Positions 3,631 through 55,254 of a stretch of DNA of 64,000 nucleotides are shown here, piece after piece. The DNA comes from Pseudomonas paeninsulae (lineage in GTDB: Bacteria > Pseudomonadota > Gammaproteobacteria > Pseudomonadales > Pseudomonadaceae): assembly GCF_035621475.1 (NCBI RefSeq), contig NZ_CP141799.1:1290501-1354500 (forward strand), given 5' to 3'. How positions within the stretch are numbered: the stretch's first letter is position 1; each line of letters opens with the position of its first letter. The notes under the pieces are model-generated. The model saw nothing but the letters and a program-made list of their open reading frames with translations. It did no database searches and was not told the origin of the DNA. The position numbers and the translations under genes are program-made.

Positions 3631-3864
3631 TCAGGCAGCTAACGCTTTGACGGCGGCCAAATGTGTCTCTGTTGGGGCGATGCGCGCGCTGTTGGGAAGT
3701 GGTTTATGCAGCCAGCCGAGCTGCTGCTGATTGACTTCGATCCAGCCCAGGCCTTGTGGCGCCTGGGCTGACTGGCGAAAGGCGCGGCACAGGCCAAATC
3801 TATCGAGTAAGGCAAATGTGCGGATGTGGCGGCGTGGGGCGAGCCAGGAGCGAAGGAAAAACAT
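3631..3864 (-). CDS. Conserved small Pseudomonas protein, unknown function
   Basis: This 77-residue basic protein begins MFFLRSWLAPRRHIRTFALLDRFGLCRAF and continues with QAPQGLGWIEVNQQQLGWL. From memory, similar short proteins of this form are common in Pseudomonas genomes and are annotated as hypothetical. Composition and codon use match the neighbours. No transmembrane segment, signal peptide or catalytic motif is evident. The ribosome-binding site is weak, so the exact start is less certain than the frame. Confidence 0.65.
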   Translation of the reverse strand: MFFLRSWLAPRRHIRTFALLDRFGLCRAFRQSAQAPQGLGWIEVNQQQLGWLHKPLPNSARIAPTETHLAAVKALAA

Positions 3865-10800: not shown

Positions 10801-10861
10801 AACCCTGTGCGCAGTGTCATCAGCCAGTGGCTGGTTGTTAACAATGCGCCAGCCCGTGTTG

Positions 10862-10955
10862 TGGGGCTGAGGGTCGCACGCACCATGGTCGGTGGACCAA
10901 GTATGTTGACGCGTGCCGGGCGAGCTGATGCTCGCGGGAGACTACTCCCCTAGGA
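10862..10955 (-). promoter_or_regulatory. Manganese riboswitch (yybP-ykoY type)
   Basis: Read on the minus strand, the leader contains GGGGAGTAG (10950-10942) and the hallmark loop TCAACATACTTGG (around 10909-10897), followed by GGTGCGTGCGACC. These are the two conserved blocks of the yybP-ykoY aptamer, which senses Mn2+ and commonly controls exporters such as MntP, Alx and GDT1-type proteins. It sits 150-240 bases upstream of the GDT1-like start, in the right orientation to activate it when manganese is high. A covariance search would settle the boundaries. Confidence 0.88.
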
Positions 10956-11010
10956 CGGGCGCATTCTGCCCACCCACAGTGGATTGGGCAAGCCGCATCT
11001 GCTCAGGTGG

Positions 11011-43928: not shown

Positions 43929-43949
43929 GCATAACCCTCAAGGTTATGC
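43929..43949. promoter_or_regulatory. Dyad between Rieske and EamA genes
   Basis: GCATAACC-CTCAA-GGTTATGC, a perfect 8-bp dyad, has the same ATAAC/GTTAT arms as the LysR boxes but a spacing two bases longer. It could be a regulator site or a weak hairpin. Confidence 0.45.
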
Positions 43950-43993
43950 GGTGCTTATTCTTGCCCGATTCTCGATCAGCAGGTTTTCACATC

Positions 43994-44923
43994 ATGCACA
44001 GTGCGTCTCCCCTGGTACTCAACGACGGCTACGCCCGGGGCTTCTTCCTGGTGCTGCTGGCGGCCTTCTGTTATGGCCTGCAGCCGCTGTTCGCCCAATA
44101 CGCCTATGCCAGCGGCGCGGACCCGGTGGGCCTGCTGCTGGTGCGTTTCGTGATCGCGGCGGCGATCCTGCTGCTGTACCTGCGCCTGCGCGGGGTACGC
44201 CTGCCGCGCGGGCGCCTGGCCAGACAGAACCTGCTGGTGGGCGTCGGCTACGGCCTGGCTGCGCTGGGCTACTACACCGCCAGCCGCAGCACCTCGGTGA
44301 GCCTGGCGGTGATCCTGATGTTCTCCTTCCCGGCCTTCGTCACCGCCCTGTCGATCGCCTACCTCGGCGAGCGCACCAGTGTGCTCAAGCTGATCAGCCT
44401 GGTGCTGGCGCTGGGCGGCGTGCTGCTGGCCACCGGCCTGAGTATGCACGGCGAGGTGAGCGGGGTGCTCTGGGCGCTGTTCTCCGCCCTGAGCTACGGC
44501 GCGGCAATCATCTACGGTACCCATAGCATTCGCCATGAGCAGCCGCTGGCCTCGGCGGCCATGGTACTGCTGGGCTGCGCCCTGACCTTCTGCATCGCCG
44601 CACTCTACTCGGGCGCGACCCTGCCCTCCGGTGCGCCGGCCTGGTGGTCGACCCTGGGCCTGGCCCTGTTCGCCACGATCCTGCCGGTCGCCGCCTTCCT
44701 CGCCGGCTCGCCGCTTATTGGCTCCTCCTCGGCCTCTACCCTGTCGACCCTGGAGCCGGTGGTGGCGGTGACCATCGCCGTGCTGCTGATCGGCGAACAG
44801 ATCAGCGCCGGCATGCTCGGTGGCGGCCTGTTGGTGGTGCTGGCGGCGATCATCCTGTCGCGGCAGGGCGGTACCTTGCCGGAGCCGAGCCTGGTGCCGC
44901 TCGAGCCGCCGGAAGACCTCTAG
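43994..44923 (+). CDS. EamA/DMT-family transporter
   Basis: This 309-residue protein has ten predicted membrane helices in two EamA repeats, the first starting FFLVLLAAFCYGLQPLFAQYA and the second at GVLWALFSALSYGAAIIYG. Drug/metabolite transporters of this type export or import amino acids and related metabolites. It lies 93 bases after the Rieske gene in the same direction. It may export a catabolic intermediate or be an independent gene. Confidence 0.85.
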   Translation: MHSASPLVLNDGYARGFFLVLLAAFCYGLQPLFAQYAYASGADPVGLLLVRFVIAAAILLLYLRLRGVRLPRGRLARQNLLVGVGYGLAALGYYTASRSTSVSLAVILMFSFPAFVTALSIAYLGERTSVLKLISLVLALGGVLLATGLSMHGEVSGVLWALFSALSYGAAIIYGTHSIRHEQPLASAAMVLLGCALTFCIAALYSGATLPSGAPAWWSTLGLALFATILPVAAFLAGSPLIGSSSASTLSTLEPVVAVTIAVLLIGEQISAGMLGGGLLVVLAAIILSRQGGTLPEPSLVPLEPPEDL

Positions 44924-45080: not shown

Positions 45081-45129
45081 GTTAAAGGGGTCGGAGTGAT
45101 TTATTTTTAATCACTCCGACCCCTTTAAC
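45081..45129. repeat. Perfect 21-bp inverted repeat at integron edge
   Basis: The left arm at 45081-45101 and right arm at 45109-45129 are exact complements around TATTTTT. The arm contains GGGGTCGGAGTGATT, a motif I associate with hairpins near transposases. It marks the boundary between the chromosomal EamA region and the cassette region and could act as a terminator. Confidence 0.85.
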
Positions 45130-45189
45130 TTTGAACGGCAACATGTGAAGGATGGATGAATGATACAAAGTCGATATTCATGCGTAGCC

Positions 45190-45223
45190 GTATAACATTT
45201 GGTTAAGGGGCGGGCTTTAGCCC
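45190..45223 (-). other. attC site 1, first part (R' end), split by IS4 copy 1
   Basis: In cassette orientation (minus strand) this is the 3' half of an attC site: GCCCCTTAACCAAACGTTATAC-like, with core GTTATAC complementary to 45190-45196. The other half is at 48529-48582. Together, counting the 12-bp duplication once, they form a 76-bp imperfect palindrome with the R''-L''-L'-R' order of integron attC sites. Confidence 0.75.
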
Positions 45224-45469
45224 AATGTCATCAACTTAAGCAGTTTCTCTATAAATATCATATAATTAGCGCTCAAATTAGCGCATAGGAAAACTCCTTA
45301 TGGCCTCTCATTCCACACCGTTTGACACCGCCCAGCAAACCCTGGCCTGAAAATTGTACAAAAAATAACCAGCTCGCTTGATTGTCCCGCTTTCATCGAT
45401 ACCCACCGCCAGCACCCTCAAGACTTTACCCGCCGACGTCAGCTGACCTTCAAGAACCTCGTCCTGTTC

Positions 45470-46618
45470 TTGCTCAATCAGCCGCGCACCGCCTTGCAGA
45501 CCGAACTCGATCAGTTCTATCGCGTGCTAAATCAGGCCTCGGCCGAGACCCAGGTGGTTACCGCGCAAGCCTTCAGCAAGGCTCGCAGCAAGCTCAAGCC
45601 CGAGGTCTTCGAGAGCCTTAACCAAGTCCTTCAGCACCAGATCGACAGCCTCGGGCTGCGCCAGACGTGGTGCGGGCTACGCGTACTCGCCGTGGATGGC
45701 TCCACCGTACATTTACCACTGGAGCCGGCCATGACGCGCTTCTTTGGCAGCCACAGCGAGTTTCCCGTTGCCCGCCTGTCCATGCTCTACGACGTCACCG
45801 ACGGTCAAACGCTGCACAGCCTGATCGTGCCATTCGAAGTCGGCGAGCGTGATTGCACCCACTTGCATCTCGCGCATCTGCCCCCTGACAGCCTGACGCT
45901 GTTTGATCGCGGCTATCCTGGGCACTGGTTGTTCGCGCTGTTCGAGCAGCAACGGCGGCATTTCCTGATGCGCCTGCCTTGTGGCTACAACGCGCAGGTC
46001 AAACAGTTTCTCCAGTCGGGTCAGGTCGAAGACACGCTGTTCTTCGCGGCCAGTCATCCAGAAGCGCGCTTGTTTTGTACCGAGGCCGGCGTCGATCCCG
46101 CAGGCCAGGTCGAATTACGCTTGGTTCGGGTCGAGCTGGCGAGCGGTGAAAGCGAAGTGTTGCTGACCTCTCTGCTGGACCGGCAGGCATTCCCGGCCGA
46201 GGTGTTTGCGGATCTCTACCACCGCCGATGGGGCATCGAGACGGACTACCGCCGCGTCAAGCAGACCCTGAGTCTGGACAACTTCAGCGGTCGCAGCGTG
46301 GTAGCGGTGAAGCAGGACTTTCATGCCGGGCAACTACTGAAGAATCTGGGGCTGCTGATGAACTACCTGCTGCAACCGGTCATCGAACAGCGCCACAAAG
46401 GCCGCAAGTTGCGCTGGAAGGTCAACTTCACCCAAGGGGTGTCGCGCCTCAAGAACACCTTGGTCGAGCTGCTGGTGCGCCCCTGTGCTCAGGGGCTGGC
46501 CAACGTGCTGGCGCTGATGACCAACAGTCTCAGCGCCGTGCGTCCAGGGCGCAGCTTCCCGCGTAAGTGTAAGCGCCCGGCCAGCCGCGGCTGCGAGGGG
46601 GCCAAACCGACGCGCTGA
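45470..46618 (+). CDS. IS4-family transposase (copy 1)
   Basis: This DDE transposase of at least 382 residues has LAVDGSTVHLPLEP (first Asp), LTLFDRGYPGHWLF (second Asp, YREK-region neighbour), and RRWGIETDYRRVKQTLSLDNFSGRS with the catalytic Glu in the Y-(2)-R-(3)-E/IETDYRRVK block. The frame is open back to 45326 and reads convincingly there (CPAFIDTHRQHPQDFTRRRQL), but without an ATG. The only good ATG with a ribosome-binding site (45300) is in another frame and stops after 16 codons. Copy 2 has the same arrangement. Confidence 0.85.
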   Translation: MLNQPRTALQTELDQFYRVLNQASAETQVVTAQAFSKARSKLKPEVFESLNQVLQHQIDSLGLRQTWCGLRVLAVDGSTVHLPLEPAMTRFFGSHSEFPVARLSMLYDVTDGQTLHSLIVPFEVGERDCTHLHLAHLPPDSLTLFDRGYPGHWLFALFEQQRRHFLMRLPCGYNAQVKQFLQSGQVEDTLFFAASHPEARLFCTEAGVDPAGQVELRLVRVELASGESEVLLTSLLDRQAFPAEVFADLYHRRWGIETDYRRVKQTLSLDNFSGRSVVAVKQDFHAGQLLKNLGLLMNYLLQPVIEQRHKGRKLRWKVNFTQGVSRLKNTLVELLVRPCAQGLANVLALMTNSLSAVRPGRSFPRKCKRPASRGCEGAKPTR

Positions 46619-46706
46619 GAACCCGCACTACCCCCCGGTGTCAGGCTAGTTGTCGCCTGAGCTGATTTATCAAAACGATAGATCGGGGGCGTCAAAGAGA
46701 GCTGTA

Positions 46707-47207
46707 ATGTCGAGCTATTCACCTGAGCGTAAAGCTGCCCTTATCCGTAAATTACTGCCGCCGCAAAACATGTCCGTGGCCGAGTTGTCGCGTCAAGAAG
46801 GTATCTCCCAAGCCACCCTGTATGCTTGGCGCACGAAGCTCAAAGCGGGAGGCGCGGTAGTGCCCGGAGACAAGAAAAACGCCGATGACTGGCCGGCTGA
46901 AGCCAAGTTCGCAGCGGTATTGCACGCGGCCACCCTGAGCGAGATCGAGCTCAGCGAATACTGTCGTAGCAAGGGCTTGTACCCTGAACAACTCAACGCG
47001 TGGCGCCAAGCCTGCATCAGTGGCCAGCTGTCTGCCCAGGCACAGCGTCAGGCTGATCGAGAGCAGGCGCGCGCCGACAAGAAACGCATCGCCGAGTTGG
47101 AGCGTGAACTGCGACGCAAGGACAAGGCGTTGGCGGAAACCGCCGCCATCCTGGTGCTGCGAAAAAAGATGAATGCCTTCTGGGGAAACGACAGCGAGGA
47201 CGTTTGA
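46707..47207 (+). CDS. IS3-family OrfA (DNA-binding)
   Basis: This 166-residue protein has two helix-turn-helix-like units (SVAELSRQEGISQATLYAWR and LSEYCRSKGLYPEQLNAWR) and a C-terminal leucine-zipper-like coiled coil (RIAELERELRRKDKALAETAA). Near its end the codons CGA AAA AAG contain the slippery heptamer A AAA AAG at 47162-47168. This would shift ribosomes into the orfB frame to make OrfAB. Confidence 0.88.
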   Translation: MSSYSPERKAALIRKLLPPQNMSVAELSRQEGISQATLYAWRTKLKAGGAVVPGDKKNADDWPAEAKFAAVLHAATLSEIELSEYCRSKGLYPEQLNAWRQACISGQLSAQAQRQADREQARADKKRIAELERELRRKDKALAETAAILVLRKKMNAFWGNDSEDV

Positions 47208-48259
47208 CCTCTCTGCCAGAACGGCAACAACTCGTTGAACGCTTTAACCATGCCGTTGCTTCTGGTGCACGCAAGGCAATTGCCTGTGCAGAGATCGGGC
47301 TGTCGCTGCGCAGCCTGCAACGCTGGGCGCTGACACCTGTCATACAGGCCGATGTGCGTACGACCACACTACGTCCGCGACCGAGCAATGCCCTGAGTGC
47401 TGAGGAGCGCCGCACCATCCTGGATGCCTGCAACAGCCCGCCATTCGCCAGCTTGCCGCCGAGTCAGATCGTGCCAAGGCTGGCCGATCAAGGTCGCTAC
47501 CTAGCCTCAGAAGCCACCTTTTACCGCGTGCTGAAAGCCGCTGATCAGCTGCACCAACGTGGCCGCAGCCATGCGCCGCACAAGCACGCCGCGCCGACCA
47601 CGCACAGTGCGAGGAAGAGCAATCAGGTCTGGTCATGGGACATTACCTACCTGCAATCGCCGGTGCGCGGGCAGTATTACTACCTGTACTTGATCGAGGA
47701 TATCTACAGCCGCAAGGCCGTGGGCTGGGAGGTTTACGAGCAAGAAAGCGGCGAGCGTGCGGCCGAACTGATGCAGCGTACCGTGCTCGGCGAGCGCTGC
47801 GCGGGCCAACCCTTGGTGCTGCACTCGGACAACGGCGCGCCGATGAAATCGGTGACGCTGCTGAGTAAGTTGTACGACCTGGGCATCACCCCATCGCGCG
47901 GACGACCGCGGGTGAGCAACGACAATCCCTACTCAGAGTCGCTGTTTAGAACCCTGAAATACTGCCCGCAATGGCCGCAGGATGGCTTTGCCGATTTGGA
48001 CGCAGCACGCAGCTGGGTGCGCGATTTTATCCGCTGGTACAACCATGAGCACCGCCACAGCCGCATCCGCTTCGTGACCCCGGCACAGCGCCATCGTGGA
48101 GAGGATCAAGAAGTGCTAGCCAAGCGTCATGCGCTGTACCAGCAAGCCCGTCATAAACACCCGCATCGCTGGTCAGGTGCAACGCGAAATTGGCAACCTA
48201 TCGGCGCCGTCACACTCAACCCGGAAAGGGAGCAGCCGGCACTGAAAATAGCAGCTTAA
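47204..48259 (+). CDS. IS3-family OrfB (integrase-core transposase)
   Basis: This 351-residue rve-domain DDE transposase has WSWDITYLQSPVRGQYYYLY (first Asp), LVLHSDNGAPMKS (second Asp) and NPYSESLFRTLKYCPQWP (Glu). It overlaps the OrfA stop by four bases and is in the -1 frame, which is open back to the A AAA AAG site. The product is therefore most likely translated as an OrfAB fusion. The TTG at 47204 is only a nominal start. The frame is intact. Confidence 0.9.
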   Translation: MTSLPERQQLVERFNHAVASGARKAIACAEIGLSLRSLQRWALTPVIQADVRTTTLRPRPSNALSAEERRTILDACNSPPFASLPPSQIVPRLADQGRYLASEATFYRVLKAADQLHQRGRSHAPHKHAAPTTHSARKSNQVWSWDITYLQSPVRGQYYYLYLIEDIYSRKAVGWEVYEQESGERAAELMQRTVLGERCAGQPLVLHSDNGAPMKSVTLLSKLYDLGITPSRGRPRVSNDNPYSESLFRTLKYCPQWPQDGFADLDAARSWVRDFIRWYNHEHRHSRIRFVTPAQRHRGEDQEVLAKRHALYQQARHKHPHRWSGATRNWQPIGAVTLNPEREQPALKIAA

Positions 48260-48528
48260 AAACACGGCTGACGCGACAACTACCTTGCAAAACGCCGCTA
48301 CCGCCAAAACCGCCGTGCAAAAAAGCTGGCCAGAAGCGGTCGGTACGCGCTCGCCCGGAAAACGAGAAACCCGCTCGATAAAGCGAACCGGCGTCCATTA
48401 AGCTGCCGCCAAGATTAAATATGCGCTGAATCGGGGAGCAAAACCGGTGGCGGTGCTGCTGCAACCGAGCGCTCAAGCCCTGGATTTGCTTGCTCCAGAC
48501 AGGGCTGGGAGCTTAAGTTGATGACATT

Positions 48529-48582
48529 GGGCTTTAGCCCGTCCCAGTGAGCGAAGCGAACGGTTTGAACCAGTTGTTATAC
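48529..48582 (-). other. attC site 1, second part (R'' end)
   Basis: In cassette orientation this reads GTATAAC AACTGGTTCAAA then CCGTTCGCTTCGCTCACTGGGAC. It begins at the stop codon of the PIN-like cassette gene: the TAA lies inside GTATAAC, as is usual for cassette genes. It pairs with 45190-45223. Confidence 0.75.
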
Positions 48583-49611
48583 GTCACTAACGGTTACTTC
48601 GATAACTTTGGTTTTGACGTTGAGATATTCATACGCGGCTCTGGTTTTATGTATGAAGGCGGCATCCCGAGAGAATAGAAAATCTGAAAACGAAGATATA
48701 GCAGCATGCCCTGCATCACTCATTGCGGCAGTGAATCTTCTGTCATGTTTCATTTTGGAATCTGGATAGTAGCCGATAACATTTAACACGTTGTATATAG
48801 ATGTTACTTTTTCATGCAGATACATTTCTCTGTTGTAAATTGGGTTTTTTGACAAACCTAGAAATTGCTCTATTGAGAAATTATTCTCTCTGTAGCCATC
48901 AAGCGTTTTATAGATGCTCCATATTTTCTCTATAACGTTCGGTGGTTCAATGTTGTTCAGTTGTACCGGCCCAACCTTCATATGATTGCGGTATGTCTGA
49001 ACGCCAGAATAGTTTAATTCATCCTCTATGTGTTTACGCAGCTCTACTGTTGATTGGGTAAGAGCCTCGTTGAAGCTTTTTTGCATTTCTTTTGTATAGG
49101 CAGAGATTTCAGCATCTATTCCGGGAACTAAGTCTTTGACTTCGTCAACTCGGTCAGAAATATAGTTCATGAGGCCGCCAAATGAATCTATCTGTTCTCT
49201 GTTGATTTCATCAAAGTCGCTTCCTGCTCGACCGCCATAGAATTTAAGCAATGATTGCGCTGTGGCTTTTTCCATTGCCTCATAAATCGGTTCAATATTT
49301 TTGCAGTAATCTTCAAACGCATCGAACGGATTTAATTCTTTTAATATGGCCCGATCAGTTACTTTAAAGCTCTCCGTGACGAAGATTCGAAGGTGCATCG
49401 CCTCCAAGTTTTCAAGAGCTTCAAGAAATTGTGAGCCATTATCTCCTGTACGTTTAATTTCCTTGAGCGTCTCATCTGAATAAATAATCTGATATTTTTC
49501 TCTCAGTTCAGATGCGAATGGTAAATCTCTTGTTTTCACAAATAAATCAAGAATGTTGTGGTCTAAATATGCTGTTGGCTTTCCATCATAATTGTTATTC
49601 GGAGTCTTCAC
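48577..49611 (-). CDS. Integron-cassette gene: PIN-like domain protein
   Basis: This 344-residue protein starts with a GTG 17 bases inside the cassette, just after the attC-2 core. An acidic residue follows the first strand (AYLDHNILDLF, Asp17), and the C-terminal block (SDAGHAAISSFSDFLFSRDAAFIHKTRAAYEYL) carries Asp residues spaced as in PIN-type RNases. The middle 200 residues are helical and unfamiliar. Base composition is markedly more AT-rich than the chromosome, a sign of transfer. A nuclease role, possibly in defence, is inferred from the fold only. Its stop codon lies in attC-1. Confidence 0.75.
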   Translation of the reverse strand: MKTPNNNYDGKPTAYLDHNILDLFVKTRDLPFASELREKYQIIYSDETLKEIKRTGDNGSQFLEALENLEAMHLRIFVTESFKVTDRAILKELNPFDAFEDYCKNIEPIYEAMEKATAQSLLKFYGGRAGSDFDEINREQIDSFGGLMNYISDRVDEVKDLVPGIDAEISAYTKEMQKSFNEALTQSTVELRKHIEDELNYSGVQTYRNHMKVGPVQLNNIEPPNVIEKIWSIYKTLDGYRENNFSIEQFLGLSKNPIYNREMYLHEKVTSIYNVLNVIGYYPDSKMKHDRRFTAAMSDAGHAAISSFSDFLFSRDAAFIHKTRAAYEYLNVKTKVIEVTVSDV

Positions 49612-49627
49612 TCAATACCCCTATGAT

Positions 49628-49661
49628 GTATAACGTTTGGTTAAGGGGCGGGCTTTAGCCC
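49628..49661 (-). other. attC site 2, R' end
   Basis: In cassette orientation it ends CCCCTTAACCAAACGTTATAC, with core GTTATAC complementary to 49628-49634. The 12-bp IS4 target GGGCTTTAGCCC is at 49650-49661. The other half is at 51297-51350. Confidence 0.78.
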
Positions 49662-51296
49662 AATGTCATCAACTTAAGCTCCCAGCCCTGTCTGGAGCAA
49701 GCAAATCCAGGGCTTGAGCGCTCGGTTGCAGCAGCACCGCCACCGGTTTTGCTCCCCGATTCAGCGCATATTTAATCTTGGCGGCAGCTTAATGGACGCC
49801 GGTTCGCTTTATCGAGCGGGTTTCTCGTTTTCCGGGCGAGCGCGTACCGACCGCTTCTGGCCAGCTTTTTTGCACGGCGGTTTTGGCGGTAGTGCGGGTT
49901 CTCAGCGCGTCGGTTTGGCCCCCTCGCAGCCGCGGCTGGCCGGGCGCTTACACTTACGCGGGAAGCTGCGCCCTGGACGCACGGCGCTGAGACTGTTGGT
50001 CATCAGCGCCAGCACGTTGGCCAGCCCCTGAGCACAGGGGCGCACCAGCAGCTCGACCAAGGTGTTCTTGAGGCGCGACACCCCTTGGGTGAAGTTGACC
50101 TTCCAGCGCAACTTGCGGCCTTTGTGGCGCTGTTCGATGACCGGTTGCAGCAGGTAGTTCATCAGCAGCCCCAGATTCTTCAGTAGTTGCCCGGCATGAA
50201 AGTCCTGCTTCACCGCTACCACGCTGCGACCGCTGAAGTTGTCCAGACTCAGGGTCTGCTTGACGCGGCGGTAGTCCGTCTCGATGCCCCATCGGCGGTG
50301 GTAGAGATCCGCAAACACCTCGGCCGGGAATGCCTGCCGGTCCAGCAGAGAGGTCAGCAACACTTCGCTTTCACCGCTCGCCAGCTCGACCCGAACCAAG
50401 CGTAATTCGACCTGGCCTGCGGGATCGACGCCGGCCTCGGTACAAAACAAGCGCGCTTCTGGATGACTGGCCGCGAAGAACAGCGTGTCTTCGACCTGAC
50501 CCGACTGGAGAAACTGTTTGACCTGCGCGTTGTAGCCACAAGGCAGGCGCATCAGGAAATGCCGCCGTTGCTGCTCGAACAGCGCGAACAACCAGTGCCC
50601 AGGATAGCCGCGATCAAACAGCGTCAGGCTGTCAGGGGGCAGATGCGCGAGATGCAAGTGGGTGCAATCACGCTCGCCGACTTCGAATGGCACGATCAGG
50701 CTGTGCAGCGTTTGACCGTCGGTGACGTCGTAGAGCATGGACAGGCGGGCAACGGGAAACTCGCTGTGGCTGCCAAAGAAGCGCGTCATGGCCGGCTCCA
50801 GTGGTAAATGTACGGTGGAGCCATCCACGGCGAGTACGCGTAGCCCGCACCACGTCTGGCGCAGCCCGAGGCTGTCGATCTGGTGCTGAAGGACTTGGTT
50901 AAGGCTCTCGAAGACCTCGGGCTTGAGCTTGCTGCGAGCCTTGCTGAAGGCTTGCGCGGTAACCACCTGGGTCTCGGCCGAGGCCTGATTTAGCACGCGA
51001 TAGAACTGATCGAGTTCGGTCTGCAAGGCGGTGCGCGGCTGATTGAGCAAGAACAGGACGAGGTTCTTGAAGGTCAGCTGACGTCGGCGGGTAAAGTCTT
51101 GAGGGTGCTGGCGGTGGGTATCGATGAAAGCGGGACAATCAAGCGAGCTGGTTATTTTTTGTACAATTTTCAGGCCAGGGTTTGCTGGGCGGTGTCAAAC
51201 GGTGTGGAATGAGAGGCCATAAGGAGTTTTCCTATGCGCTAATTTGAGCGCTAATTATATGATATTTATAGAGAAACTGCTTAAGTTGATGACATT
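49662..51296 (-). mobile_element. IS4-type element copy 2 (intact, inverted)
   Basis: This 1635-bp element has exact 17-bp terminal inverted repeats AATGTCATCAACTTAAG and a 12-bp duplication GGGCTTTAGCCC (49650-49661 and 51297-51308). It is inserted at the same position in attC-2 as copy 1 in attC-1 but in the opposite orientation. The pair could act as a composite transposon carrying the PIN-like gene. Confidence 0.93.
49902..51050 (-). CDS. IS4-family transposase (copy 2)
   Basis: Same 382-residue product as copy 1, with the same catalytic blocks and the same lack of an in-frame ATG upstream. No difference from copy 1 is evident over the coding region, which indicates recent duplication or gene conversion. 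The open frame again extends about 48 codons further upstream, to about 51194. Confidence 0.85.
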   Translation of the reverse strand: MLNQPRTALQTELDQFYRVLNQASAETQVVTAQAFSKARSKLKPEVFESLNQVLQHQIDSLGLRQTWCGLRVLAVDGSTVHLPLEPAMTRFFGSHSEFPVARLSMLYDVTDGQTLHSLIVPFEVGERDCTHLHLAHLPPDSLTLFDRGYPGHWLFALFEQQRRHFLMRLPCGYNAQVKQFLQSGQVEDTLFFAASHPEARLFCTEAGVDPAGQVELRLVRVELASGESEVLLTSLLDRQAFPAEVFADLYHRRWGIETDYRRVKQTLSLDNFSGRSVVAVKQDFHAGQLLKNLGLLMNYLLQPVIEQRHKGRKLRWKVNFTQGVSRLKNTLVELLVRPCAQGLANVLALMTNSLSAVRPGRSFPRKCKRPASRGCEGAKPTR

Positions 51297-51350
51297 GGGC
51301 TTTAGCCCGTCCCAGTGAGCGAAGCGAGCGGTTTGAACCACTTGTTAGGT
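51297..51350 (-). other. attC site 2, R'' end
   Basis: In cassette orientation it begins ACCTAAC AAGTGGTTCAAA then CCGCTCGCTTCGCTCACTGGGAC. ACCTAAC fits the integron inverse core RYYYAAC exactly. It lies 12 bases after the stop of the membrane-protein cassette gene. Confidence 0.8.
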
Positions 51351-51361
51351 TTATACGCAAT

Positions 51362-51772
51362 TCACTGATGAGAAAAGTGCGTTAATAAAGAGTCGAAGGC
51401 GACAAATGCTTTCCAAGAAATCCAAGCAAAATTTATTGAAATTATTATTTTTGCAAGATTAGCCCATAAATTTCTCATGGTGTTTTTGGCGCAACGCCAA
51501 ACAGAAATTGAACATAACAAGAAATACATAATGTAGATAACTACAACTGTAGTTGCGGTCGTTAATAAAGCTGTTTCTTTTTGTAGATTTAAAATATGAC
51601 TTGCTTGTAATAGCAAATGGCTTGTTGAGAGAGATTTTATTAGTACTACGAAAATGGCCGTGAAAGAAAGGCTACCTAGAACATACAAAATCCAGAATGC
51701 CTTCCATAGCGGTTGACTCCCACGAATGAAGCTCATTTTCTGTAGAGATGGTGATGTTGCTGATACTTCCAT
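51362..51772 (-). CDS. Integron-cassette gene: small membrane protein
   Basis: This 136-residue protein has three hydrophobic segments (WKAFWILYVLGSLSFTAIFVVLI, TALLTTATTVVVIYIMYFLL and LWANLAKIIISINFAWISWKAFV), so it is an inner-membrane protein. It is AT-rich like the neighbouring cassette gene. The ATG at 51772 lies 15 bases after the GTTAGGT core of the attI-like site and is preferred over a start at 51808 that would fall outside the cassette. No family is recognised. Confidence 0.7.
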   Translation of the reverse strand: MEVSATSPSLQKMSFIRGSQPLWKAFWILYVLGSLSFTAIFVVLIKSLSTSHLLLQASHILNLQKETALLTTATTVVVIYIMYFLLCSISVWRCAKNTMRNLWANLAKIIISINFAWISWKAFVAFDSLLTHFSHQ

Positions 51773-51780
51773 GTTGTAGA

Positions 51781-51845
51781 ACCTAACTATAATTAGGCGA
51801 CATACCATGTCGCGTTTGTTCGCGACAGCATGTCGTATAACGTTC
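51781..51845 (-). other. attI-like site
   Basis: On the minus strand the sequence reads TATGTCGCCTAATTATAG then GTTAGGT, then the first cassette gene. This resembles the end of class 1 attI (GTCGCCCTAAAACAAAGTTAGG) in the same order and spacing. A further AACGTTATAC core lies upstream (around 51834-51843). Proposed as the primary cassette insertion site of the array. Confidence 0.5.
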
Positions 51846-51921
51846 CTTGTCGCCCTGTAAGTCCTTGTCTTGCCTTGATGTTGTCGCGGGGGCGCGACAG
51901 CGATCAGGGAGAAACGCGACA
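51809..51921. repeat. Cluster of TGTCGCG / CGCGACA dyads
   Basis: TGTCGCG occurs at 51809 and 51882, and its complement CGCGACA at 51821, 51893 and 51915, with TGTCGCC at 51848. The pairs 51809/51821 and 51882/51893 form hairpins with 7-bp stems. They may be regulator sites near the attI-like site or structures linked to recombination. Confidence 0.6.
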
Positions 51922-52269
51922 GGGATGACGGCAAGCCCAAACGGCTGAATCGGCGCTGACGCAAACTCACGCGCCACAGTATTCGACGCTAGTCGAATGT
52001 GTCTACACGAGGCAGCCGGTTCCGCCAAGGCATAGCGGACTAAAGCTGAAACGCGCTGTATGTCTCGCTGAACCCGCTTTCTCTCGCTGTACGTCTTCCA
52101 AGGCACAACGCAATTCATGCTCACGTTTCGCTCGCGAGCGCAGATCGGCTTTGCGCTACGGGAGGGAGTTGGCGAGCGAGGCGACTTGGGGTGACGGTCA
52201 GCCAGCGCGGGAGAAGGGCACATGACGATCCGGCCGTCATGTGGCTTATTAGCGATTCAGGCCAGGTGC

Positions 52270-54306
52270 TCAGAGGTCTTTGACCAGACGCAGGGCGTCG
52301 TAGATCGCCGCGTGGGTGTTGCGCGCCGCTACTGCATCGCCGATGCGGAACAGCTGGAATTCGCCATCCGGGTTGTCGTCCCTGGACTGCGGCTGACCGA
52401 CGATCAGCTCGCCGTGGTCCACCGCGCCGAGGTTGCGCGAGAAAGGCTTGAGTTCTAGATACAGCTCGTCCATTGGCCGGGTGCCGTGGTTGACCACTAC
52501 CTGATCCACCCGGCGCTGCTTGCGCACGCCGCCATAGTCGCTGTCGATGCTCGCCACCAGCTCGGCGCCGTCACGCGCCACCGCGGCCAGGCGATAGGTG
52601 ACGGTGAAGGTGGTGTCGAGTTTTTGCAGCGAGCGCATGTAGGGCACCAGGTTCATGGCCATGACTTCCGGCGCGAATGAGCGGTCCGGGGTCATGATTT
52701 CCAGCTTGGCGCCAGTCTGGGCGATGAACTCGGCGGCCTGTAGCGCCGTGTGATCACCGGCGTCGTCGAACAGCAGCACGTTCGCGCCGGGTTTGACGTC
52801 GCCGGAGATGATGTCCCAGGCCGATACCACCAGCTCGTTGCCGGCGCTGAGGATCTCGGTATGCGGGAAGCCGCCAGTGGCGACTATGACCACATCGGCC
52901 CGCTCGGCGCGGATGGTCTCGGCATCGGCCCAAGTGTTGAAGTGGAAGGTCACGCCGAGTGCCGTGCATTGCGCCATGCGCCAGTCGATGATGCCGAGCA
53001 TCTCGCGCCGGCGCGGGCTGCGCGCGGTCAGGCGCACCTGCCCGCCGGCGTCATTGGCCGCCTCGAACAGCACTACCTCATGACCGCGCTCGCCAGCCAC
53101 TCGGGCCGCTTCCAGGCCCGCCGGGCCGGCGCCGATGATCAGCACTTTGCGCCGCTTGGCAGCCTTGGGGATTTCATGCGGCATGCTTGTTTCGCGGCCG
53201 GTGGCGGCGTTGTGGATGCAGTAGGCCGCACCGCCCTGATAGATGCGGTCGAGGCAGTAGTTGGCGCCGACGCAGGGGCGGATGTCCTGCTCGCGGCCCT
53301 CGATCAGTTTGCGTACCAGGTGCGGGTCGGTCATGTGCGCGCGGGTCATGCCGATCATGTCGACCTTGCCCGAGGCGATGGCATGGCGGGCGGTGGCGAC
53401 ATCGGAAATTTTCGCGGCGTGGAAGGTGGGGAAATCGGTGGCGGCGCGAATCTGTCCGGCAAAGTCGAGGTGCGGCGAGCTGGCCATACCCTGGATCGGG
53501 ATCACGTCGGTCAGGCCGGCGTCGGTGTCGATGTGGCCGCGAATCACGTTGAGAAAGTCGACCATGCCGCTGGCCTTGAGCCGACGCGAGATGTCCACAC
53601 CTTCATCCGCGTTGAAACCGCCGCTGAGCACTTCGTCTGCGGTATAGCGCACGCCGACGATGAACTGGTTGCCGACGCGCTGGCGAATGGCGCTGAGCAC
53701 GTCGAAGGTGAAGCGCAGGCGGTTGTCCAGCGAGCCGCCATAGGGGGCGTCCAGTTCGTTGGTCAGCGGCGACCAGAACTGGTCCATCAAGTGGCCGTAG
53801 GCCTGCAGCTCGATGCCGTCCAGACCGGCCGCCTGCATGCGCTCCGCCGCATCGGCGTAGTCCTTGATGATGCGCTCGATGTCCCAGTCTTCCAGCTGCT
53901 TGGGGAAGGCGCGGTGCGCCGCCTCGCGGTTGTGCGACGGCGACACCACGGGCAACCAGTCGCCCTTGTCCCAGCGCGTGCGCCGCCCCAGGTGGGTCAG
54001 CTGGATCATCACCGCCGCGCCGTGCTCATGGCACTCATCGGTGAGGTCCTTCAGCCAGCCGACCACCTCATCCTTGTAGGCGAGGATGTTGTTGAACACC
54101 GGCGGGCTGTCGCGCGACACCGCGGCCGAGCCGGCGGTCATGGTCAGGGCCACGCCGGCCTTGGCGCGCTCGACGTGGTAGGCGCGGTACAGCGCCTTGG
54201 GCATGCCGTCCTCGGGGTAGGCTGGCTCATGCGAGGTGGTGATGATGCGGTTGCGCAGGGTCAGGTGCTTGAGCTGGTAGGGCTGCAGCAACGGGTCATT
54301 GGACAT
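52270..54306 (-). CDS. N-methylproline demethylase-like flavoenzyme (TMADH/OYE family)
   Basis: This 678-residue two-domain enzyme has an N-terminal OYE-type FMN barrel (LLQPYQLKHLTLRNRIITTSHEPAYPEDGMP and GLDGIELQAYGHLMDQFWSPLTN). An iron-sulphur segment follows (CVGANYCLDRIYQGGAAYC), then an FAD domain (VLIIGAGPAGLEAARVAGERGHEV). The barrel sequence is very close to proteins annotated as N-methylproline demethylase in betaine loci. DgcA (dimethylglycine) is a more distant relative. It would remove the second methyl group in proline-betaine degradation. It is divergent from a TetR gene across three TGTACA sites. Confidence 0.85.
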   Translation of the reverse strand: MSNDPLLQPYQLKHLTLRNRIITTSHEPAYPEDGMPKALYRAYHVERAKAGVALTMTAGSAAVSRDSPPVFNNILAYKDEVVGWLKDLTDECHEHGAAVMIQLTHLGRRTRWDKGDWLPVVSPSHNREAAHRAFPKQLEDWDIERIIKDYADAAERMQAAGLDGIELQAYGHLMDQFWSPLTNELDAPYGGSLDNRLRFTFDVLSAIRQRVGNQFIVGVRYTADEVLSGGFNADEGVDISRRLKASGMVDFLNVIRGHIDTDAGLTDVIPIQGMASSPHLDFAGQIRAATDFPTFHAAKISDVATARHAIASGKVDMIGMTRAHMTDPHLVRKLIEGREQDIRPCVGANYCLDRIYQGGAAYCIHNAATGRETSMPHEIPKAAKRRKVLIIGAGPAGLEAARVAGERGHEVVLFEAANDAGGQVRLTARSPRRREMLGIIDWRMAQCTALGVTFHFNTWADAETIRAERADVVIVATGGFPHTEILSAGNELVVSAWDIISGDVKPGANVLLFDDAGDHTALQAAEFIAQTGAKLEIMTPDRSFAPEVMAMNLVPYMRSLQKLDTTFTVTYRLAAVARDGAELVASIDSDYGGVRKQRRVDQVVVNHGTRPMDELYLELKPFSRNLGAVDHGELIVGQPQSRDDNPDGEFQLFRIGDAVAARNTHAAIYDALRLVKDL

Positions 54307-54354
54307 GCTCAGGGCTCCACGTGGACGGGGACGTGAGTGTGTATTTACCGAAAA

Positions 54355-54507
54355 TGTACACTGGTGTCTAGTGGGTGGGCCTTGCTGTACATTGATCGTC
54401 CGCTGCGCCTGTCGTGATCGGTGGGTTTGTGTCGCCAGCAGGTATCCCCTCACGCGCACAGGCACTGCTAGGTGGCCGGGGCGAACGTGGATTAGGGGAA
54501 ATGTACA
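54355..54507. promoter_or_regulatory. Three TGTACA sites in a divergent promoter region
   Basis: AAATGTACAC (54352-54361), CAATGTACAG on the other strand (54384-54393) and AAATGTACAG (54499-54508) share (A/C)AATGTACA. They lie between the demethylase and the TetR-family gene and are the best candidates for its operators. Confidence 0.55.
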
Positions 54508-54579
54508 GGCCTGTCATTTTTATCGACGCCTGCGGACATTCAGATTGTGTGAGGGCCGCTTGCTGGCTACCATCGGCCC

Positions 54580-55254
54580 ATGAATGAACCGAAGAAGTCG
54601 AGTGATAGCGGCTGGCGTGGATCGGCCGAGATCTGGCTGCAGGCGGCTTACGACAGCCTGATCGAGTCGGGCGTCGAGTCCGTACGGATCCTGCCGCTGG
54701 CGAAAAAACTGAGCCTGTCGAGAACCAGTTTTTATTGGTTTTTCACCGATCGCGAAGAGCTGCTGGCGGCGCTGATCGAGCGCTGGCGCGCCAAGAACAG
54801 CGGCAATCTGATCCACCAGAGCGAGGCCTACGCGGAAAGCATCGCCGAGGCCATTCTCAACGTGTTCGACTGCTGGCTGAATCCGGCGCTGTTCGACTCG
54901 CAGTTCGAGTTCGCGTTGCGCAGTTGGGCGCTGCAAGAGCCCAGAGTGGCGGCGCAAGTCGAGCTCGCCGACACGGCGCGCCTGGCTGCGTTGAGCGCTA
55001 TGTTCAGCCGTTTCGGCTACCAGGGCATGGCGGCCGACGTGCGGGCCCGGTCGATATACCTGACCCAGATCGGCTACATCAGCATGAACAGTCGCGAGGA
55101 TCTGCCGACGCGCATGCAGCGCATCCCCGAGTACGTGACGATCTTTACCGGCCAGGCGCCGGAACCGCGTGAACTCCAGCGTTTCTATGCCCGCCACGGC
55201 TACCCGGTGCCAGAGCCGACGCTGGTCGCGCTGGCGGCGAATCATTCAGCCTAG
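54580..55254 (+). CDS. TetR-family transcriptional regulator
   Basis: This 224-residue protein has a TetR-like N-terminal domain (IWLQAAYDSLIESGVESVRILPLAKKLSLSRTSFYWFFTDREELLAALIE) and a helical C-terminal domain with NVFDCWLNPALFDSQFEFALRSWA. It is divergent from the demethylase and 12 bases before the ProC-like gene, so it likely controls both. The inducer is unknown, with an N-methylated imino acid being a reasonable guess. Confidence 0.87.
   Translation: MNEPKKSSDSGWRGSAEIWLQAAYDSLIESGVESVRILPLAKKLSLSRTSFYWFFTDREELLAALIERWRAKNSGNLIHQSEAYAESIAEAILNVFDCWLNPALFDSQFEFALRSWALQEPRVAAQVELADTARLAALSAMFSRFGYQGMAADVRARSIYLTQIGYISMNSREDLPTRMQRIPEYVTIFTGQAPEPRELQRFYARHGYPVPEPTLVALAANHSA

Follow-up and report, generated by a model that had tools for sequence, protein, structure and literature searches.

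Chromosomal integrons and clusters of attC sites lacking integron integrases (CALIN) are the described systems closest to the locus reported here, with which they share attC-bearing, low-GC cassettes and the lack of a working integrase gene (intI). In Xanthomonas, intI has been truncated or lost, and pathovar citri carries two cassettes and no intI, according to the available portion of PMC12444791. Insertion sequences (ISs) have also been described at recombination sites: those of the IS1111-attC group (ISPst6, ISKpn4) target the attC sites of cassettes (PMC11187229), and IS1999, a member of the IS4 family, disrupts attI1 and lowers its recombination (PMC3518468), both as given in excerpts of these papers. 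In this study, we analysed a 64-kb stretch (hereafter the window) of the 5.35-Mb genome of Pseudomonas paeninsulae, and we describe in it what is very probably a decayed chromosomal Pseudomonas integron, lying between genes for an EamA-family transporter and a flavin mononucleotide (FMN) oxidoreductase (Table 1). The decay is mostly of an ordinary, already known kind, and by attC count the locus would also pass as a CALIN, which is defined by at least two attC sites with no intI nearby; two are present once the ISs are disregarded. It differs from such systems in that attI and a stub of intI are still legible, and in that both attC sites are split by ISs.

The attC sites were identified with a profile (nhmmer) built from 22 intact attCs, 15 from the same genome and seven from three relatives, none of them from the window. 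Across the whole window the profile gave four matches at E<=1, all on the minus strand (Table 1), and these are the four half-sites, two from each split attC, that the initial annotation had proposed. A covariance model of the same 22 sites recovered the same four halves at E<=0.01 in the 304 kb searched; the structure supplied to it has no R-box pairs, and it served mainly as a sequence model. After in silico rejoining of the flanks, with a single copy of the duplication retained, the IS-free sites scored 81.8 and 78.3 bits, the second as a 79-bp piece that ran 3 bp beyond R'', and the best score among 200 shuffles, all made from the first joined site, was 3.4. By reading, attC1 spans 49628-51350 and attC2 45190-48582, and each comes to 33+43 = 76 bp without its IS, the length first put forward. 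Both show the R''-L''-L'-R' order together with the local attC family profile, and the R''/R' pairs are as originally claimed, ACCTAAC/GTTATAC in attC1 and GTATAAC/GTTATAC in attC2. The R'' box of attC1 is the complement of GTTAGGT, where cassette 1 starts beside attI (G/TTAGGT), and that of attC2 is complementary to GTTATAC, cassette 2 starting with TTATAC. The bottom strands fold with R and L boxes paired (z of -2.5 and -4.4 against 200 composition-only shuffles), and the outer arms are paired in the bottom-strand folds of both sites.

The description of the cassettes as AT-rich and carried on the minus strand is likewise borne out, their open reading frames (ORFs) having 35.5% and 38.6% GC against 61.4% for the window. 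One cassette stop codon had been placed inside an attC; it is that of the cassette 2 gene, which lies within R'', and the stop codon of the cassette 1 gene falls outside R''. The cassette 2 protein was without match in Pfam, PADLOC and NCBIfam, has homologues in three of 397 further genomes from the genus, and gave a mean predicted local distance difference test (pLDDT) score of 34 in a single-sequence structure prediction, too low for the model to be of use. For the cassette 1 protein, these searches gave one sub-threshold Pfam match (E 0.11) and none in PADLOC or NCBIfam.

Beside cassette 1 lies attI, in which the crossover point separates G (51787) from TT (51786-51785). A search with window positions 51780-52290 against 57 genomes gave matches in seven, the same genome included. 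The best match of 51784-51947 besides itself, at 83%, is to G000:C1:997594-997757 of the same genome and ends where a decayed intI starts; matches of 71% each are to DNA directly upstream of the intact intI genes (530 and 512 bits) of two other Pseudomonas genomes, G028 and G013. Judged by this homology to attI-leader regions, the attI beside the first cassette is real. The initial annotation had seen no intI frame. There is indeed no frame, and no intI was matched anywhere in the window at E<=1e-4; what had been overlooked is a decayed 5' stub of about 80 bp, which lies in the stretch beyond 51.8 kb where a search had been suggested. The attI-leader alignment does not stop at the former start codon but extends to 52005. 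Beyond that codon the stub reaches a score of 31 with G028, where 200 shuffles gave a mean of 14.9 and a best of 25, and of 24 with own995, a locus of the same genome (best shuffle 23). On this alignment, the integrase is not wholly absent from the locus, its 5' stub being left, and the feature therefore extends past the end first assigned to it. That this was an integron which lost its integrase is supported, since attI, leader and intI stub form one continuous stretch that matches integrons with an intact intI.

Table 1. Coordinates of the features discussed, numbered within the window unless a contig is given.
Feature	Position	Strand	Basis or remark
Window	G000:C1:1290501-1354500	forward	64 kb of the genome
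EamA-family transporter gene	43946..44923	+	Pfam PF00892; chromosomal flank, distal side of the array
attC2, R'-side half	45190..45222	-	GTTATAC 45190-45196; target duplication copy 45213-45222; profile match 45192-45223, E 2e-6
IS4-family (ISPa1635-like) copy a	45223..48529	+	in attC2 apex; DDE_Tnp_1; interrupted by a second element
Nested two-ORF element inside copy a	46633..48297 (approximate)	+	HTH_Tnp_1, rve; comparison of both IS4 copies
attC2, R''-side half	48530..48582	-	GTATAAC 48576-48582; duplication copy 48530-48539; profile match 48530-48581, E 1e-15
Cassette 2 gene, 344 aa	48577..49611	-	ORF; stop codon (48577-48579) inside R''
attC1, R'-side half	49628..49660	-	GTTATAC; duplication copy 49651-49660; profile match 49630-49661, E 1e-7
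IS4-family (ISPa1635-like) copy b, 1637 bp	49661..51297	-	in attC1 apex
attC1, R''-side half	51298..51350	-	ACCTAAC 51344-51350; duplication copy 51298-51307; profile match 51298-51349, E 7e-16
Cassette 1 gene, 136 aa, hydrophobic	51362..51772	-	ORF
attI and leader up to former intI start	51781..51920	-	83% to own genome C1:997594-997757; 71% to G028 and G013
Decayed intI 5' stub, about 27 codons	51921..52005	+	start codon lost, indels; aligned with G028 and G402
FMN oxidoreductase gene	52270..54465	-	Pfam PF00724; chromosomal flank, intI side

Seven relatives, picked by the EamA-side matches listed, were read at the locus (G081, G402, G206, G159, G263, G243 and G114); G281, whose long EamA-side match falls at a contig end, and G099, where it is in two pieces, were left out. 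The EamA orthologue is present in all seven and the FMN oxidoreductase gene is near it in six, G114 being without it within the stretch examined. In a search for the linkage that started from the oxidoreductase side, 80 loci, of which several are short, yielded no EamA match at E<=1e-5. Between its flank genes the close relative G081 carries nine attCs (four of the nine are training sites of the model), and an attI-like sequence was recognised by eye; no intI was matched at its orthologous locus, and an intact intI lies elsewhere in its genome. Neither of the outcomes named beforehand as refuting an integron came about: the attC profile works on the rejoined sites, and the G081 locus has att sites. 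One attC remnant (34.8 bits) is found at the locus in G263, and G206 (L197) has between the flank genes a 155-bp remnant of another intI type, 73% identical to that of our genome at 1564 kb. The remaining three, G159, G243 and G114, yielded no attC at the locus. The same-species genome G402 has an intI stub at the same locus, window positions 51929-55254 matching it at 90%, together with an attI-like sequence (64%) and two different minus-strand genes, one coding for an FRG-domain protein and the other for a protein of 194 aa (L238:2429-4020); the latter has a HEPN match below cut-off. Given that G402 shares the stub, it was most simply in place before the two strains diverged.

Integron remnants occur at several places on the chromosome. 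At 1564319, some 222 kb away from the stub, there is a full-length intI (405 bits), whose product is 54% identical to that of G028; it is accompanied by a long minus-strand array in which the attCs extend over about 1545 to 1564 kb (G000:C1:1544832-1565245; L008, L041). Two more decayed intI pieces, at G000:C1:997752-998036 (L010) and 1151881-1152285 (L009), each have an attC nearby, and more attCs occur near 995, 1151, 3820-3826 and 4098-4104 kb. With the full-length gene, the genome overall does not lack an integrase, and one encoded elsewhere in it could act from afar on the array in the window.

Several observations weigh against a decayed integron at this site. The stub is short, and its score exceeds the best shuffle for two of seven references (G028 and own995); the other five, G013, own1151, own1564 and G008 in two orientations, failed to do so, the G013 slice used having missed the gene start, and L212-L215, four more loci with an intact intI, likewise gave no score above the best shuffle. 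The cassette strand of attC1 alone fails to pair its R boxes, whereas the bottom strand does. No attC of the local family was found at the locus in G402, G206, G159, G243 or G114. In part, the three homologues of the cassette 2 protein also count here: they are distant (44-48%) and have no attC of the local family in their 1.5-kb flanks, and they do not come from the orthologous locus.

These homologues are also what favours reading the locus as two ordinary chromosomal genes followed by chance attC-like repeats. We regard that account as negligible in probability, since the profile scores are far above those of shuffles, the cassette boundaries fit the R'' boxes, attI has homologues, and nine attCs stand at the G081 locus. 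It could also be argued that there was never an integron here and that an IntI from elsewhere put the cassettes into a non-integron site (attG). Such integration is described in the literature (available part of PMC12444791), and the same genome does encode a full-length IntI, yet beside cassette 1 attI, leader and the 5' stub follow one another without a break, and G402 has an attI-like sequence and a stub at the same place. On account of that contiguity, attG integration was set aside as very improbable.

A further account keeps the stub as native and has the present attI and both cassettes imported as one unit, through homologous recombination with another integron. In support of this, the genes at the locus differ between our strain and G402, and in a four-way alignment the window is nearer own995 over 51784-51930 (79%, against 49% to G402) and nearer G402 over 51931-52005 (80%, against 59% to own995). 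The pairwise values for the attI end alone differ far less, however (own995 0.81, G402 0.75; G028 0.86, G081 0.69), and the search of the same genome gave no donor above 83%. We consider such a replacement rather unlikely, and it is in any case compatible with a decayed integron, as a variant of its history.

For that decayed integron, the anatomy read against established integron biology suggests that IntI once put cassettes in at attI; two of them remain, reading away from attI. The integrase gene has been lost, all but some 80 bp at the 5' end, the stub that is seen. ISPa1635-like IS4 copies have entered the palindromic apex of both attCs, each with a 10-bp duplication, and the R and L boxes are intact but parted by 1.6 and 3.3 kb. 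Because the boxes are parted, cassette excision should be strongly hindered, despite the other full-length intI in the genome.

The element that splits both sites is 1637 bp long, with inverted ends CAATGTCATC and a 10-bp target duplication, GGCTTTAGCC, at both attCs. Copies a and b are 100% identical over 1411 bp, and the transposase of copy a matches NF033592 with 213 bits (cut-off 115). An IS4 DDE transposase, inverted ends and target duplication place the element in the IS4 family, and IS4 copies from 10 Pseudomonas plasmids, eight of them annotated as ISPa1635 family, share 81-83% DNA identity with it. The two-ORF element nested in copy a we infer to be IS3-like; near the end of another IS4 copy, at 4098712 (L043), stands a sequence similar to the start of the nested element.

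Among 40 of 87 candidates scored in the same genome, seven copies align at 99-100% over 1423-1441 bp of the 1441-bp query. Both junctions of five of them were read in one comparison and the remaining ones in other stretches of sequence, and all seven copies found sit in the apices of seven different attCs, of differing sequence. The decamer GGCTWWAGCC occurs at 76 places in the genome (48 for the reversed control); 28 of these places were examined and 24 lie in attCs, that is, 17 distinct targets after collapsing seven duplication pairs. On the assumptions that none of the 48 unexamined places is an attC and that the 69 targets are equivalent, the probability of finding all seven copies in attCs is 1.8e-5. 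In other Pseudomonas, with two candidates scored per genome and hence not all copies, 17 loci with an IS end had an attC at the junction in four cases (two read on both sides, two on the one side available), on one side only in one, and none in 12. No plasmid copy lies in an attC (0/8, from eight of the 10 plasmid records). Strict exclusivity for attC was consequently rejected, given the 12 of 17 loci and all eight plasmid copies outside attC.

Taken with the described elements, the one found here resembles ISPa1635 in sequence and differs in that none of the eight plasmid copies read is in an attC. IS1999 is likewise an IS4-family element in an integron recombination site, which in its case is attI1 rather than an attC apex. 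Membership of the IS1111-attC group does not hold: the transposase matches DDE_Tnp_1 and an IS4 equivalog and is not of the IS110/IS1111 type (DEDD). In contrast to that group, an IS4-family DDE element sits in the apex, makes a 10-bp duplication and uses other sites too. In the open-access literature, as represented by the available portions of PMC12444791, PMC3518468 and PMC11187229, we found no description of an IS4 element in an attC apex.

Two other features of the window were recorded. A hairpin, GGGGTCGGAGTGATT..AATCACTCCGACCCC, at 45085-45127 recurs in relatives, in several places in G159, and is probably a repeated element. A manganese riboswitch (yybP-ykoY, Rfam RF00080) is present at 10823-10962, with 52.9 bits against a gathering threshold of 45.

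Altogether, the locus is a readable snapshot of integron decay, with its landing site, its cassettes and 80 bp of integrase, and relatives show other stages. The positions of the IS4 copies are a hint that the element prefers attC sites; insertions in attC may also be better tolerated than insertions in genes. Tentatively, and with the balance somewhat against it, a branch of the ISPa1635-like IS4 elements could be an attC-apex specialist, a DDE transposon without kinship to the guide-RNA IS1111-attC group, that reads the palindromic tip of Pseudomonas attCs and locks cassettes in place. If the element does prefer attC apices, the recombination sites of cassettes have become home to two transposon families with no relation to each other, and what this does to cassette mobility could be measured.
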